A program made the position numbers and the translations under genes. This document shows positions 1,089-7,753 of a stretch of 64,000 bases of DNA, in pieces; positions within the stretch are counted from its first letter, which is position 1; the number at the start of each line of letters is the position of its first letter. This stretch comes from Muribaculaceae bacterium (lineage in GTDB: Bacteria > Bacteroidota > Bacteroidia > Bacteroidales > Muribaculaceae): the NCBI GenBank assembly GCA_017557625.1, contig JAFYYG010000026.1, positions 47,674-111,673 on the forward strand, written 5' to 3'. Below the pieces are notes generated by a model. It saw nothing but the letters and a program-made list of their open reading frames with translations. It was not told where the DNA came from and made no database searches.

Positions 1089-1385
1089 ATGAAGAAGGTT
1101 AGTTTTAATGTCCAGAAATGGACAGTGAGAGTTATAGTTGCAGTTGGTGCCTTGCTCGGCATCTCGGCTTGTTGTCACACCAAGAAGGTGGTGGAAGATG
1201 ACAACTTTAACAACAATAATAACATGCCCCCTATTCATAATCTCAAATACGGGCCTCTCGTTGATGTGCATTACGATACTCTTGTCAGGAAATATATCGA
1301 CGAGAATGGTGAAGTCAAATATGATACTATATCATCCCCAGAAAAACCTAAGACGTTAAAACCATTAACTCCTGAAGATGAGTAA
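1089..1385 (+). CDS. Small lipoprotein 1 of the rSAM/lipoprotein system
   Basis: Predicted 98-residue lipoprotein. The start at 1089 is chosen over an upstream in-frame ATG at 972, because it begins with the same MKK-x-x-FxVxKW N-terminus as the next two genes and follows a good promoter. The hydrophobic stretch VIVAVGALLGISAC ends in a lipobox. The mature part has an Asn/Asp-rich spacer, a single YGPL motif (KYGPLVDV) and a Pro/Lys-rich tail. It is the most diverged of three tandem paralogues, having one YGP where the others have two VYGPP. Four bases separate it from the next gene. By analogy with the rSAM/lipoprotein systems of Bacteroidales (TIGR04133/TIGR04134) it may be a substrate of the downstream radical SAM enzyme; this is inference. 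Confidence 0.75.
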   Translation: MKKVSFNVQKWTVRVIVAVGALLGISACCHTKKVVEDDNFNNNNNMPPIHNLKYGPLVDVHYDTLVRKYIDENGEVKYDTISSPEKPKTLKPLTPEDE

Positions 1386-1388
1386 ACT

Positions 1389-1643
1389 ATGAAAAAGATG
1401 AGCTTTAATGTGCAGAAATGGGGCGTGAGAGCGCTGGTTGCCATTGGTGCACTGCTTGGTATTTCTTCATGCTCCCATAAGATGGATTTAAAATCGGTTG
1501 AAGGAGTCTATGGTCCGCCTCCAGGATACAATCCTCCGAACATAAATGTGATTGAGGACGTGTATGGTCCGCCAGTAGAGAGGATTGACAGTGTCAGGGC
1601 AACAGATGAGCTTGAGTTGAATCAGGATAAAGATATTCAATAA
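1389..1643 (+). CDS. Small lipoprotein 2 with two VYGPP motifs
   Basis: Predicted 84-residue lipoprotein. Its N-terminus (FNVQKWGVRALVAIGALLGISSC) is nearly the same as that of the preceding gene and ends in a lipobox cysteine. The mature part is short and acidic and carries two copies of VYGPP, one continuing as VYGPPPGYNPP and one as EDVYGPPVERID. No folded domain is evident, so the mature part looks like a presented peptide. Its TAA stop shares one base with the ATG of the next gene (TAATG), indicating translational coupling. The YGPP motifs are the natural guess for what the downstream radical SAM enzyme modifies; the residue and the chemistry are unknown. Confidence 0.8.
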   Translation: MKKMSFNVQKWGVRALVAIGALLGISSCSHKMDLKSVEGVYGPPPGYNPPNINVIEDVYGPPVERIDSVRATDELELNQDKDIQ

Positions 1644-1951
1644 TGAAGAAACCGACATTTTTAGTAAGAAAATGGATGGTGCGCGGCATTGTGGTGATTG
1701 GCGCTTTGATTGGCTTAACGGCTTGCCAACCAACTCACAAAAAGCATCACAACACTCATAAAAAGCATTATCAAGATGATGAAAGTTCCATCTCGGATGA
1801 CGAGAGCGAGAGCAGCGAAATAGAGGTGATTGAGGATGTATATGGTCCGCCAGTAGATGAGGTTGAGACAGTCTATGGACCACCGTCTTATTTCGATGAC
1901 AATGAGGGTAAAGTGGAGCCCGAAATTGTTGATGAACAAATGCCATCATAA
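1643..1951 (+). CDS. Small lipoprotein 3 with two VYGPP motifs
   Basis: Predicted 102-residue lipoprotein, the third tandem paralogue. The N-terminus FLVRKWMVRGIVVIGALIGLTAC ends in a lipobox. After the cysteine comes a His/Lys-rich linker with a repeated HKKH pattern, then an acidic Ser/Asp/Glu run, then EDVYGPPVDE and TVYGPPSYF, then an acidic tail. The EVIEDVYGPPV block closely matches the second block of lipoprotein 2, pointing to duplication and conservation of that short peptide. It starts inside the stop of lipoprotein 2 and ends 19 bases before the radical SAM gene. Confidence 0.8.
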   Translation: MKKPTFLVRKWMVRGIVVIGALIGLTACQPTHKKHHNTHKKHYQDDESSISDDESESSEIEVIEDVYGPPVDEVETVYGPPSYFDDNEGKVEPEIVDEQMPS

Positions 1952-1970
1952 TAAGGCAAAAACGTGAAAA

Positions 1971-3035
1971 ATGAAAACTCGTCAACTTATAGAACTTGAG
2001 AAGACACGCAACGAGAGGCGGTGGCTTGAGAAGAACCATCCGCTGCGCCAACTCTTTTGGGAATGCACATTGCGTTGCAACCTGTCGTGCCGCCATTGTG
2101 GCAGCGACTGCCGCAAGGTGTCGGTGACGCCCGACATGCCTCTTGAGCACTTCCTTCCCGTGCTCGACGATGTGGCAACGATGATAGAGCCCAAGAAAGT
2201 GCTGGTAAATACTGTTGGAGGTGAGCCATTGGTTCGTCCCGACATTGTGGAATGTGGCAAGGCAATTACCGACAGGGGATTTCTGTGGGGCTTTGTGACC
2301 AACGGTGTGCTTCTCACCGAGCAGATGCTGCGCGACCTGCTAAAGGCCGGTCTGCGCACTGTGGCAGTGAGTCTCGACGGTCTTGAGGATGAGCACAATT
2401 GGCTGCGAGGCGGTTCTTTTGACGGTGCAATGAGCGCGGTGAAACTTCTTACCCGCACCCGCAATCTGCTGTGGGATGTGATTACTTGCGTGAACCAGCG
2501 CAATTTCTCCACTCTGCCACAACTCAAGCAGTATCTCATCGACGCCGGCGTAAAGAAGTGGCGCATATTCACTATCTTCCCGCAAGGCAGGGCAAAGCTC
2601 AACAACGAACTGTTTCTGAGTCCTGAGCAGTATGTGGAACTGATGGATTTCATCGTCTCAACACGCAAAGAGGGCAAGATTAACCTTTCCTACAGTTGCG
2701 AGGGTTTCTTAGGTGACTATGAGGGAGAAGTGCGGGGACACATCTTCCGCTGCGATGCCGGCACGATGACCGCGTCAATACTTGCCAACGGCGACATCAG
2801 CGGCTGCCTTAGCATCCGTTCGCATTACAATCAGGGTAATATATACCGCGACCGTTTCAGCGACGTGTGGAACAACCGCTTTGAGCTGATGCGCGACCGC
2901 CGATGGATGAAGCATGACGAGTGCGCCAAGTGCAAGGCGTGGGACTGGTGCGCCGGCGGACCGTTCCACCTGCGTGACGACGATGGCAACATGATGCACT
3001 GCAACTACCTTACAATCTGCAAAGCGAAGAAATGA
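1971..3035 (+). CDS. Radical SAM/SPASM enzyme of the rSAM/lipoprotein system
   Basis: A 354-residue radical SAM protein. CxxxCxxC at C36, C40 and C43 would bind the SAM-cleaving 4Fe-4S cluster, and VGGEPL follows about 45 residues later as in the family fold. The C-terminus is a SPASM-type region with GDISGCLSIRS, ECAKCKAWDWCAGG and two later cysteines, suited to auxiliary clusters. The GCLSIRS...GNIY...DVW pattern is the one I associate with the TIGR04133 family (radical SAM enzyme of the rSAM/lipoprotein system). It is last in the operon behind three small YGPP lipoproteins, which are its likely peptide substrates. No precursor-recognition (RRE) domain is apparent, so substrate recognition is unexplained. 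The stop codon abuts a word-type repeat. Confidence 0.88.
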   Translation: MKTRQLIELEKTRNERRWLEKNHPLRQLFWECTLRCNLSCRHCGSDCRKVSVTPDMPLEHFLPVLDDVATMIEPKKVLVNTVGGEPLVRPDIVECGKAITDRGFLWGFVTNGVLLTEQMLRDLLKAGLRTVAVSLDGLEDEHNWLRGGSFDGAMSAVKLLTRTRNLLWDVITCVNQRNFSTLPQLKQYLIDAGVKKWRIFTIFPQGRAKLNNELFLSPEQYVELMDFIVSTRKEGKINLSYSCEGFLGDYEGEVRGHIFRCDAGTMTASILANGDISGCLSIRSHYNQGNIYRDRFSDVWNNRFELMRDRRWMKHDECAKCKAWDWCAGGPFHLRDDDGNMMHCNYLTICKAKK

Positions 3036-4451: not shown

Positions 4452-4530
4452 TAGAGTACAGAGTATAGAGTGCAGAGTTGGGTGTATAGAGTTGAGAGGC
4501 GGCGTTCCGATCCCCGATCCCCGATTCACG
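4452..4530. repeat. Word-type repeat tract, right arm of an inverted repeat
   Basis: Mirror image of the tract at 3036-3135. Bases 4484-4518 are the exact reverse complement of 3066-3100, flanked by degenerate AGAGTACAG-type and GATCCCC-type words. It runs into the last codons of the convergent pantothenate kinase gene and supplies its TGA stop (4526-4528, read on the minus strand). It may also act as a transcription end for both genes. Confidence 0.8.
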
Positions 4531-5362
4531 ATTCTCGCACCGTAGGTGCAAACGCTAGTGCTGCTCCGAGGGCGGTGCAGTATTCAGCGTGGGCGGGGAT
4601 GTGGAATTTCACGCCATAGATTTCCTCGATGCGTGGGAACACCACAGCGCATTGCGGCAGACGGGTGAGGTTGCCAATCAGCACAAAATCCTTCACTCCT
4701 GTGTTGAGTTTTGACAGTACGGCAGCCGAGCCAATCGACTCCAGCACCATGCAGATGATGCCAAGAGCCACATCGTTTTCACTAGGGGTAATTTGACGCA
4801 CCTTGCCAAAGAGCGATGCCGTGGCATGCAGCGGCAGGCCCTCAAGGTCGGTTTTACAGATGTCCTTAATTTGAAGGTTTATGTGAGTGATGTCACCGTT
4901 CTTTGCCAGTTCTATAACGTCAGTGATGTGGTCGGTCTTAAGTAGCAGATGAGCCAGTCCCATCAATGTGCCGCCGCCAATGCCGATGCCGCCCAAGTGC
5001 TTGATAACGTCGCCGTCCACGCTCACCAGCGTTGTTCCAGTGCCCATCGACACAACAGTCAAGTTATCTAAGCCGCTGTCAAAGCGTGCGCCCAGACCGT
5101 CGGCCTGGAACTCATCGGCCTTGCTCGTGGGCAGGCCATAGATGGGAGTTGTCACACCCGAACTGCCAACACCCGTGAGCATCACATGCTCGATGTCGGC
5201 GAGCGTTATGCCGTTGTCGTAGATATACTTGCCAAAAGCTCCGAAGAGCGAGGTAATGGGGTCGGCAGCAGTGATAAACATAGGCGAGAGAATCTGCCCA
5301 TCGTTGAGTCCCACAATCTTGGTGGTGCTTCCACCCACATCAATTCCTATTACTAAGCCCAT
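4526..5362 (-). CDS. coaW: Type II pantothenate kinase
   Basis: A 278-residue ASKHA-fold kinase that phosphorylates pantothenate, the first step of coenzyme A synthesis. The N-terminal phosphate loop is GIDVGGSTTK. A second nucleotide-binding motif, SMGTGTTLVSV, follows near residue 108, and LGGIGIGGGTLMGLAHLLL near 130 is typical of the eukaryote-like (Fumble/CoaW) group. The final two codons and the stop lie inside the word repeat, so the C-terminal residues may vary between strains. It is transcribed alone, with a promoter at 5439-5471, and converges with the esterase gene. Confidence 0.88.
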   Translation of the reverse strand: MGLVIGIDVGGSTTKIVGLNDGQILSPMFITAADPITSLFGAFGKYIYDNGITLADIEHVMLTGVGSSGVTTPIYGLPTSKADEFQADGLGARFDSGLDNLTVVSMGTGTTLVSVDGDVIKHLGGIGIGGGTLMGLAHLLLKTDHITDVIELAKNGDITHINLQIKDICKTDLEGLPLHATASLFGKVRQITPSENDVALGIICMVLESIGSAAVLSKLNTGVKDFVLIGNLTRLPQCAVVFPRIEEIYGVKFHIPAHAEYCTALGAALAFAPTVRES

Positions 5363-5523: not shown

Positions 5524-5552
5524 TTTGCCACAAAAAATATCGCTAATTTTGC
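5524..5552 (+). promoter_or_regulatory. Possible promoter of the zinc-ribbon/ExbD-like pair
   Basis: TAATTTTG at 5544-5551 is a good -7 box. The nearest TTTG (5524-5527) is only 16 bases upstream, shorter than the usual 19-21, so the upstream element is uncertain. The ATG at 5646 would follow a leader of about 85-90 nt. Between this and the coaW promoter the AT-rich DNA shows no coding potential. Confidence 0.45.
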
Positions 5553-5645: not shown

Positions 5646-6362
5646 ATGAACTGTCAAAGTTGTGGAAATAGATTAAAACCAACTGATAAATATTGCACTT
5701 ACTGCGGTCAACAGATAGGCAATAGTCAAAAGAAAAAGCGCATTTGGCTAGCACTTATTTTATCGATTCTAGTCTTAACTGTTGCGGTGTCTGCAGTTTT
5801 CTTTTTTTGGTATGTAAATAAATTCCGCCAGACATCAACTGTTGAGTTGAAATTACCAGACATCAATAAAGGAGATAATTCAGTTAATGACAATGATGCT
5901 CGTATTTCTGAATCAATCACATTCATTATTGACGGCACCAACAGTAAAAACCAAACTTGTAATGACGGAGTCATATATTATTATGAAGGTAAGCCAGACT
6001 TGAATACCAGTGCATTAAAGGAAATAAAGATTGATTCCGTTCGCTTATTACTTGCCGAGAGGAACAATGAACTTATTTCAGAAATCGACAAAATAAAAAA
6101 AGAATGGTCGAAAGGCAATATTGACGATGAAAAGTACAAAGAACTCGTTAAAAAGGCACGTGACACCCAAGCGGCCGACCCCAATGCACATAGAGTGATT
6201 GTTACGATTAAACCAACACCCAACGCCATTTATGCCAACGTGGTTAGGATGCTTGACGAGATGCAAGTCAACCATATCACAACATATCAAATAGAGGCAC
6301 TAACCAAGGAGGACTCTATTCTTTATAAACAAACAACAGGCTATCCTATTAGATCCAAATAA
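5646..6362 (+). CDS. Zinc ribbon - transmembrane helix - ExbD-like domain protein (A)
   Basis: A 238-residue protein with unusual architecture. Residues 1-24 are a zinc ribbon (C3, C6, C17, C20). Residues 33-57 are one membrane helix after a KKKR stop-transfer cluster, so the ribbon should be cytoplasmic. From about residue 85 the periplasmic part resembles the long ExbD variant of Bacteroidetes: a beta strand ending in GVIYYYEGKPD, then SVRLLLAERN, a charged helix of about 40 residues, VIVTIKPTPNAIYANVV, then LDEMQ and a final strand. Canonical ExbD has a short tail and a helix with an essential Asp in place of the ribbon; this helix has no acidic residue, so it should not couple to the proton gradient. 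It lies 16 bases upstream of a paralogue, with no ExbB nearby. The function is unknown. Confidence 0.8.
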   Translation: MNCQSCGNRLKPTDKYCTYCGQQIGNSQKKKRIWLALILSILVLTVAVSAVFFFWYVNKFRQTSTVELKLPDINKGDNSVNDNDARISESITFIIDGTNSKNQTCNDGVIYYYEGKPDLNTSALKEIKIDSVRLLLAERNNELISEIDKIKKEWSKGNIDDEKYKELVKKARDTQAADPNAHRVIVTIKPTPNAIYANVVRMLDEMQVNHITTYQIEALTKEDSILYKQTTGYPIRSK

Positions 6363-6378
6363 TCAAAAAATATATATT

Positions 6379-7212
6379 ATGGAAGTAAATATATGTCCAA
6401 AATGTGGCAACATATTTAATGGTTCTGAAAAATACTGCTCTAATTGTGGTGCTAAACTTCTACAGGAAGATGGTGCAGACCAGCAATCATTTAAAGCCAA
6501 TAAGACTCTATTTGCATCAAAGCGTCGAAAAAACACAATTGTACTATTGTTGATAGCAGCACTCGTGATTTTTGGCTCTATATTGGCCTTCTTCATGTTG
6601 ACTTCAACATTTCTTGAGAAAGAACCCGTTCAGGTCATCACACCACCATCATTGAGCGAGGAGAATGTACCCGAAGAGAAATTTGTACAGATACTTATTG
6701 CCCCTGATGGTAAAGTTTATTTGAGTCTGGCAGGTACTAGAGACGAAAGTGTTCTACCTTCTGAAAAATTCAGAGAAGAGGTGTTGACTACTGCCTATGA
6801 ACTTTATCGTAATGATAACCCGAATGCAGAGGTCCTTACTCCAACTCAAATTACAGAATTTGGAAAAATAGGAACATTTGGTGTCCCAATGAACAAATTG
6901 CTGCAATGGCTTGATATGAGTACGGGGGAGCGTGATGAGATGTTGAGAAAAGAAGGAATTCCTATAGAAATTACAAAAGATCATCCAAACAGCCGCACTA
7001 ATGAGTTCCAATATTGGTTGAGTGCAATAAAGCAAGTCTTCAGTAAGTATGAGATTGACAAATATTTGCGTGATGGAAACTCAATAGTAATCAAAGCAGA
7101 ACAAGACACAGCGTTCGACAAAATACATGTTGTAATGGAAAACTTGCAGTCGGCGCATTTAAACAAGTTTATTCTGATGACTTCATTCAAATCGGAGATG
7201 GAAAGGGAATAA
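6379..7212 (+). CDS. Zinc ribbon - transmembrane helix - ExbD-like domain protein (B)
   Basis: A 277-residue partner of the preceding gene. The zinc ribbon uses C6, C9, C20 and C23; the membrane helix is at about 53-76, after KRRK. The rest resembles the second ExbD variant of Bacteroidetes: ILIAPDGKVYLSL, then GKIGTFGVPM, a helix with LLQWLDMS, IPIEI, an Asn-containing linker with FQYWLSAIKQ, then SIVIKAEQDTAFDKIHVVM and a C-terminal strand NKFILMTSF. The two genes therefore keep both halves of a typical ExbD pair, but each has swapped its energy-coupling N-terminus for a zinc ribbon. The helix lacks an Asp. They may form a hetero-oligomer. A different promoter-less gene follows after 16 bases and may be co-transcribed. 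Confidence 0.8.
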   Translation: MEVNICPKCGNIFNGSEKYCSNCGAKLLQEDGADQQSFKANKTLFASKRRKNTIVLLLIAALVIFGSILAFFMLTSTFLEKEPVQVITPPSLSEENVPEEKFVQILIAPDGKVYLSLAGTRDESVLPSEKFREEVLTTAYELYRNDNPNAEVLTPTQITEFGKIGTFGVPMNKLLQWLDMSTGERDEMLRKEGIPIEITKDHPNSRTNEFQYWLSAIKQVFSKYEIDKYLRDGNSIVIKAEQDTAFDKIHVVMENLQSAHLNKFILMTSFKSEMERE

Positions 7213-7228
7213 GCTCTATTTTAATAAA

Positions 7229-7753
7229 ATGAAAAAGATAATATCCAATGACATCGTGACGCTGCGGTCGCTTGAGGCGACCGACCTTGATGTGCTGTAC
7301 CAGTGGGAAAATGACTCTCGGCTGTGGACGGTGAGCAACATCATGGCGCCGTCGCCCAAGAGCTACCTGTGGCAGTACCTACAGAATTATGACAGTGATA
7401 TTTTCAACACCCGCCAGCTGCGCCTCATGATAACGCTCACCGAGACTGCCGAGCCGGTTGGCACCGTTGACCTCACGAACTTCGACCCGTTCAACAACCG
7501 TGCCGAGTTTGGCATCATGATAGACCAGGCCCAAGTGGGCAAGGGCATAGGCGATGCGGCGTTGAAACTCACCATAAGCTATGTGCGCGACTACTTGGGC
7601 TTATTCCAGTTATATGCCTTAGTTCCGGAGAGCAACACCGTGTGCATCACTATGCTCAGGAAGCACGGTTTCACTAGCTCTGGTCTCCTCAAGAAATGGA
7701 TTAACCACGGCACCGAAATCCACAACGTGGAAATGATGCAGCTGTTATTTTGA
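7229..7753 (+). CDS. GNAT family N-acetyltransferase
   Basis: A 174-residue acetyltransferase of the RimJ/RimL-like GNAT group. It starts with IVTLRSLEATDLDVLYQWEND, typical of the family. The acetyl-CoA loop is QVGKGIGDAALKL near residue 97, followed by LYALVPESNTVCITMLRKHGF, the usual strand-helix near the C-terminus. The substrate cannot be told from sequence. Base composition is more GC-rich than in the ExbD-like pair 16 bases upstream, so it may be a separate unit. The stop overlaps a possible TTG start of the next gene. Confidence 0.85.
   Translation: MKKIISNDIVTLRSLEATDLDVLYQWENDSRLWTVSNIMAPSPKSYLWQYLQNYDSDIFNTRQLRLMITLTETAEPVGTVDLTNFDPFNNRAEFGIMIDQAQVGKGIGDAALKLTISYVRDYLGLFQLYALVPESNTVCITMLRKHGFTSSGLLKKWINHGTEIHNVEMMQLLF

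Follow-up and report, generated by a model that had tools for sequence, protein, structure and literature searches.

What does a stator subunit do once the helix that couples it to its motor has been exchanged for something else? The question is posed by two adjacent genes, termed A and B, in a 64,000-nucleotide stretch of DNA (the window) on contig C11 of a Muribaculaceae bacterium, genome G000 (G, C and L numbers are our handles for genomes, contigs and loci). Each encodes a zinc-ribbon head, a single membrane helix, and the periplasmic domain of one of the two long types of ExbD. The domain exchange is real and well defined, and narrow in distribution, and searches of the open-access literature found no description of a zinc-ribbon ExbD. 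As to function, we favor a reading that we hold to be plausible rather than probable: A and B would pair through their ExbD1- and ExbD2-type periplasmic domains in a heterodimer without coupling to the proton motor, most likely a brake or holding site that captures TonB, with peptidoglycan the second possible ligand.

Both proteins open with a CX2CX10CX2C head followed by one hydrophobic helix, much as the preliminary description of this DNA had it. Against a Zn_Ribbon_1 cut-off of 25, A scores 24.6 bits and B 20.7 when the pair is scanned, and 28.0 and 22.1 in a search of the genome; A lies at the cut-off, that is, and B under it. The NCBIfam TcaA model also matches B weakly (22.6 bits, cut-off 550, residues 5–74). 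The remainder of each protein is ExbD-like. Both exceed the cut-off (25.4) of the Pfam ExbD model PF02472, A with 27.1 bits and B with 46.9; on the periplasmic part alone B scores 28.7, and A, at 17.4, falls under it. Alignment to the genome's own canonical pair, by which the types were assigned, makes A ExbD1-like (37% identity) and B ExbD2-like (53%, E 7.3e-75), and with these scores chance similarity to ExbD was ruled out. When structural matches to the two models were re-aligned, the top five rows of each were TolR/ExbD, a ranking that is a second look at a Foldseek list whose own E-values are not significant; sequence searches of the PDB gave no significant ExbD match (one gave none, the others ExbD at E 0.026 and TolR at E 0.55). 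That both ExbD domain types are present, and that they belong to the ExbD/TolR family, holds on the Pfam scores, the alignments to the genome's own pair and the structural rows.

The helices are another matter. The most hydrophobic 19-residue window (hydropathy 2.82 in A, 3.05 in B) contains neither Asp nor Glu, and none lies within four residues of it; the same stretch of the genome's canonical ExbD1 and ExbD2 scores 1.71 and 1.68 and has two Asp in each. The conserved Asp of the ExbD/TolR motor helix was found in neither A nor B, by hydropathy windows or by alignment, as the preliminary description had observed. In B, the segment FFMLTSTFL is identical to canonical ExbD2 and is followed, after one substitution, by KEPVQV, and the canonical helix part that precedes this segment, IDMTAMSDVTVLLLT, stands as IVLLLIAALVIFGSILA. 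By alignment, then, the junction in B lies inside the helix: one half is still that of ExbD, and the half with the Asp has been exchanged. In A, similarity to canonical ExbD1 restarts at FF and is weaker than in B. On this evidence the proton-coupling half of the helix is lost from both. The motor part had been said to be replaced by a cytosolic metal-binding domain; the swap and the conserved periplasmic domains agree with this, but B retains more of ExbD than had been supposed. No direct fusion donor of the ribbon was found among the partial matches, the best of which are L022 for B (31% over 80 residues) and, for A, a ribbon protein behind tonB (50% over 24). Other zinc-ribbon proteins of this order have, as outward domains, LysM (L193, L194), BACON (L013, L020, L195) and WG repeats (L196). 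Since a wide variety of proteins in these bacteria have such heads, what the pair does need not depend on its ribbon, which may be only an anchor.

PF02472 matches five proteins in the genome: besides A and B, these are two members of an exbB-exbD2-exbD1-tonB cluster (C4) and a protein encoded next to exbB on C42. MotA_ExbB matches were found in the genome on C4 and C42 only, and none of its nine TonB_C matches is on C11, so that, as reported earlier, neither exbB nor tonB adjoins the pair. The homologues that keep the Asp and stand beside exbB are all canonical, ribbon-less ExbDs—the source of the pair—and leave the account of a ribbon-anchored pair intact. A tree restricted to periplasmic columns places B with the genome's own ExbD2 (97/96). 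In the best tree A is not joined to the own ExbD1 and sits with the ExbD1 of relatives (95/84), but a tree that joins the two is not rejected (p-AU, the approximately unbiased test, 0.36). Derived states in common with the own paralogue number eight for B and five for A. These relationships clearly point to B having arisen by duplication of the genome's own exbD2. A would have come from the same event, by way of the own ExbD1, but this is less certain. In near relatives a ribbon protein, with a helix as judged by eye, comes after tonB in the exbB-exbD2-exbD1-tonB cluster (L007:1169-2215); such a ribbon open reading frame (ORF) is present in 11 of 80 loci (L065–L144), all within the first twelve.

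The genome contains a second ExbD-like protein without a motor helix, found with A as query: an ORF of 482 amino acids (aa; G000:C46:61017-62462, equivalent to L202:2515-3963) with what by eye is a lipoprotein-like signal, LLGC. Residues 131–298 match an ExbD1 profile with hhalign probability 99.5 when combined with a relative from G026, and 98.9 alone. The last ~60 residues match ExbD2 with probability 89 (pairwise E 2.3e-6) in combination, and 13 alone, so that of the two domain assignments the one to ExbD2 is less secure; the PF02472 score of the whole, 17.7, is under the cut-off. We predict a lipoprotein with tandem ExbD1- and ExbD2-like domains. The relative in G026, a sister species (L233:2578-3924, 448 aa), has the same location, beside what we take to be recF, and is without the lipobox Cys, and a short C-terminal relic occupies this location in G086, another sister species (L234:1616-1768). 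Further full-length relatives were found neither in 101 genomes of the genus nor among the matches listed for 397 of the family.

How widespread is the ribbon pair itself? Surveys covered one genome per species, often incomplete: 101 from the genus, 397 from the family, 393 from the order and 395 from the phylum. Within the genus, 84 genomes have a match to B and 17 have none; the match runs from residue 1, ribbon to ExbD, in G000 only, and three further rows (G000:C42, G050:C28, G087:C3) reach just the ribbon-helix end of the protein. In the family, 291 genomes match B at 1e-30, and among the matches listed the fusion is in G000 only; two more of these rows start before residue 30 (G113, G272) and are interrupted by stop codons, and the ExbD2 of G113 is canonical on reading (L184). 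In the order, 104 genomes match B residues 1–125, and ribbon and ExbD parts occur together in G000 only. Nine other rows there begin before residue 30. Six were read closely: five are ribbon ORFs without an ExbD match (two with LysM, one with BACON, one with WG repeats, one with no known outward domain), and the sixth (L197) contains no ribbon ORF of 100 aa. The other three are the canonical G113 locus, G000:C42 (which is L022, without ExbD match) and G470, which has an internal stop. A ribbon-ExbD1 protein was not found outside G000 in the phylum, where 26 genomes match A; rows starting at residues 21–29 begin past the ribbon, the two that were read (L199, L200) being canonical, and G837 is ribbon only. 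Among the best 80 of 518 matches in GTDB 220 contigs, all begin at residue 38 or later, and no relative of the pair was found in viral contigs, scans from which records very near the window's genome were possibly left out. A phage-borne origin was ruled out by this lack of viral relatives, and a stray defence gene by the lack of a PADLOC match. Among the matches listed, the ribbon pair is seen in one species only.

The pair interrupts an arrangement that is familiar from relatives. Its neighbors are a gene we take to be pantothenate-kinase-like (PanK-like) and another that is presumably a GNAT-type acetyltransferase; in 10 of the 20 relatives searched, these are divergent neighbors separated by 99–334 bp. 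Identity to relatives in the genus is 93–98% for the PanK-like flank and 77–86% for the GNAT flank (each in 14 of 20), which rules out a chimeric contig. In all seven relatives aligned, an element TAnnTTTG, which we take to be the Bacteroidetes −7 consensus, stands 29–32 bp ahead of the GNAT start. Here it precedes gene A, so the pair has been placed between element and GNAT, and may be expressed from this element; a scan for sigma-70 promoters and terminators gave no excess over shuffles. Genes A and B are 16 bp apart, as are B and the GNAT gene. In three relatives another ORF separates PanK-like from GNAT: G079 (gap 1391 bp; L165:2039-3235 on C31, 398 aa), G003 (1302 bp; L177:579-1688) and G007 (1257 bp; L178:2019-2831), the last two presumably glycosyltransferase-like, by eye. 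The site may be insertion-prone. The G079 ORF begins MKKVISND, and GNAT begins MKKIISND. Elsewhere the two flanking genes are far apart on one contig (G050, G070) or on separate contigs (G045, G037, G098); a PanK match was not found in G077, nor a match to either gene in G022.

Table. Features of the A/B locus (positions in the window; names of flanking genes are presumed)
Feature	Position	Strand	Remarks
Gene A, zinc-ribbon ExbD1-like protein, 238 aa	5646..6362	+	ATG at 5646
Gene A zinc ribbon, C3-X2-C6-X10-C17-X2-C20	5652..5705	+	Zn_Ribbon_1 score at the cut-off
Gene A membrane helix, residues 33-56	5742..5813	+	no acidic residue; canonical motif DFTPMVDMN absent
Gene A ExbD1-type periplasmic domain, residues 85-229	5898..6332	+	
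Gene B, zinc-ribbon ExbD2-like protein, 277 aa	6379..7212	+	ATG at 6379
Gene B zinc ribbon, C6-X2-C9-X10-C20-X2-C23	6394..6447	+	Zn_Ribbon_1 score under the cut-off
Gene B membrane helix, residues 52-79	6532..6615	+	N-terminal half replaced; no acidic residue
Gene B kept ExbD2 helix half FFMLTSTFL, residues 71-79	6589..6615	+	same as canonical protein
Gene B ExbD2-type periplasmic domain, residues 99-270	6673..7188	+	
Promoter-like element TAATTTTG	5544..5551	+	fits -7 element TAnnTTTG; upstream of gene A
Pantothenate-kinase-like gene, left flank	4526..5362	-	93-98% identical in 14/20 relatives searched
GNAT-type acetyltransferase	7229..7753	+	in 7 relatives aligned, directly behind promoter-like element

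How might such a pair work? We propose that, in a duplicated exbD2-exbD1 pair, a membrane anchor with a zinc ribbon took the place of the motor helix that couples to protons. A and B would sit N-in/C-out in the inner membrane, ribbon heads binding zinc and periplasmic domains held outward, where the ExbD1 and ExbD2 domains would pair with each other. Because the Asp helix is gone, ExbB should be unable to drive them. An E. coli ExbD dimer captures a single D-box strand of TonB with its periplasmic domains, and the substitution L132Q abolishes this (PMC10907165). Judged from end-anchored alignment ranges only, the L132 position would be taken by the hydrophobic residues L266 in B and I216 in A. 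Since the E. coli dimer captures the TonB strand, capture without proton coupling seems the likeliest role for the A-B heterodimer, which would act as a brake on TonB or a holding site for it. Peptidoglycan might be its other ligand, as ExbD touches peptidoglycan transiently (PMC10771500). A broader proposal, that in this lineage an ExbD1/ExbD2 heterodimer has on two or more occasions been freed from the proton motor—as two ribbon-anchored proteins and as one secreted or lipid-anchored tandem—and that both forms brake, hold or redirect TonB, we regard as doubtful.

The periplasmic domains are conserved, in keeping with the earlier suggestion that the ExbD–ExbD interaction module was kept. B keeps 34 of 39 near-invariant columns (≥95% conserved) and the own ExbD2 35; A keeps 21 of 30, and the own ExbD1 27. 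At variable columns (<60%) the figures are 10 of 84 for B (own ExbD2, 18) and 15 of 76 for A (own ExbD1, 19). The pattern agrees better with function than with decay, and the case is clearer in B than in A. Part of this conservation predates the duplication and was inherited. The ratio of nonsynonymous to synonymous change (dN/dS) was not used for the pair, silent sites being saturated.

The alternative that survives best, although we consider it unlikely, is an envelope tether, in which the ribbon helix does no more than anchor each protein in the inner membrane while its ExbD domain binds peptidoglycan. The LysM, BACON and WG regions of other zinc-ribbon proteins here are in keeping with this, as is the transient contact of ExbD with peptidoglycan (PMC10771500), and in Lactococcus lactis a pair of CX2CX10CX2C membrane proteins binds zinc, one of them affecting cell wall integrity (PMC4628341). 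Both ExbD types are kept together twice in this genome, however, and that favors pairing over a single cell-wall binder.

More improbable is a decoy for Ton-using phages or bacteriocins, or a competitor that enters mixed ExbD dimers and poisons them. The canonical genes do seem to have changed unevenly: measured against the sister L065, own-only and L065-only changes number 53:9 in ExbD1, 39:7 in ExbD2, 28:3 in ExbB and 32:9 in TonB; the flanking NqrA (9:6) and the ribbon protein (6:8) show no such excess. But this comparison is confounded. Fourfold sites of exbB, exbD2 and exbD1 are 78–80% identical between L065 and L072, and those of tonB 65%, whereas for nqrA the figure is 41% and for the ribbon gene 45%; motor genes so much more alike at silent sites point to recent exchange among relatives, and the own-only excess is therefore not clean evidence of acceleration. 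Fast co-evolution of the canonical motor genes with the pair was dropped as a clean claim for this reason. With an outgroup, own-only and clade-only changes are 15:0 in ExbD2, 13:2 in ExbD1, 5:2 in ExbB and 4:1 in TonB, a lead on faster change in the canonical motor that is suggestive only. A, B and P0003, moreover, have no PADLOC match.

We give just as small a chance to A and B being decaying duplicates without function. Their branches are long, they occur in one species only, and their G+C content at third codon positions is lower (A 0.36, B 0.35) than that of canonical exbD1 (0.43) and exbD2 (0.39); yet both frames are open, the ribbons are intact, losses fall mainly at variable columns, and the promoter-like element has been kept. 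Least likely of all is a metal- or redox-gated sensor in which cytosolic zinc loss alters ExbD or TonB engagement, for while the four Cys are intact in both ribbons, this head is common to many other proteins, and the L. lactis zinc complex withstands 37 °C and oxidative agents (PMC4628341).

Elsewhere in the window, positions 1089–3035 hold three short paralogous lipoprotein-like ORFs without NCBIfam match, two of them with repeated VYGPP motifs, and then comes a radical SAM/SPASM protein (TIGR04133, 495.5 bits, cut-off 425).

To return to the proton-uncoupled heterodimer, swapped copies of nutrient-import motor subunits in a gut bacterium suggest that the outer part of this motor can be used without the motor. 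Retention of both periplasmic types while the motor helix was discarded argues that ExbD1 and ExbD2 function together, as one unit whose usefulness goes beyond force generation. The pair offers natural separation-of-function proteins with which to probe the periplasmic domains of ExbD.

Three kinds of known system invite comparison. The ExbD/TolR stator subunits of the Ton and Tol motors (PF02472) resemble A and B in periplasmic sequence and predicted fold, and both of the long types of these bacteria are represented in the pair; A and B differ in that they have no Asp motor helix and no adjoining exbB, and in their added cytosolic ribbon. Zinc-ribbon single-helix proteins—Llmg_0524 and Llmg_0526 of L. 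lactis, the BACON, LysM and WG types, and TcaA—have the same CX2CX10CX2C head, helix and outward domain, and the two from L. lactis form an operon pair, as A and B adjoin (PMC4628341). In A and B, however, the outward domain is that of ExbD, which occurs in no other ribbon protein among the matches listed. Finally, vWA proteins with a TolR/ExbD-like helix, which occur in heterologous pairs, are likewise rearranged Ton/Tol stator parts (PMC12204202). They are the mirror image of A and B: the vWA proteins keep the Asp helix and join it to another periplasmic domain, whereas A and B swap the helix and keep the domain.
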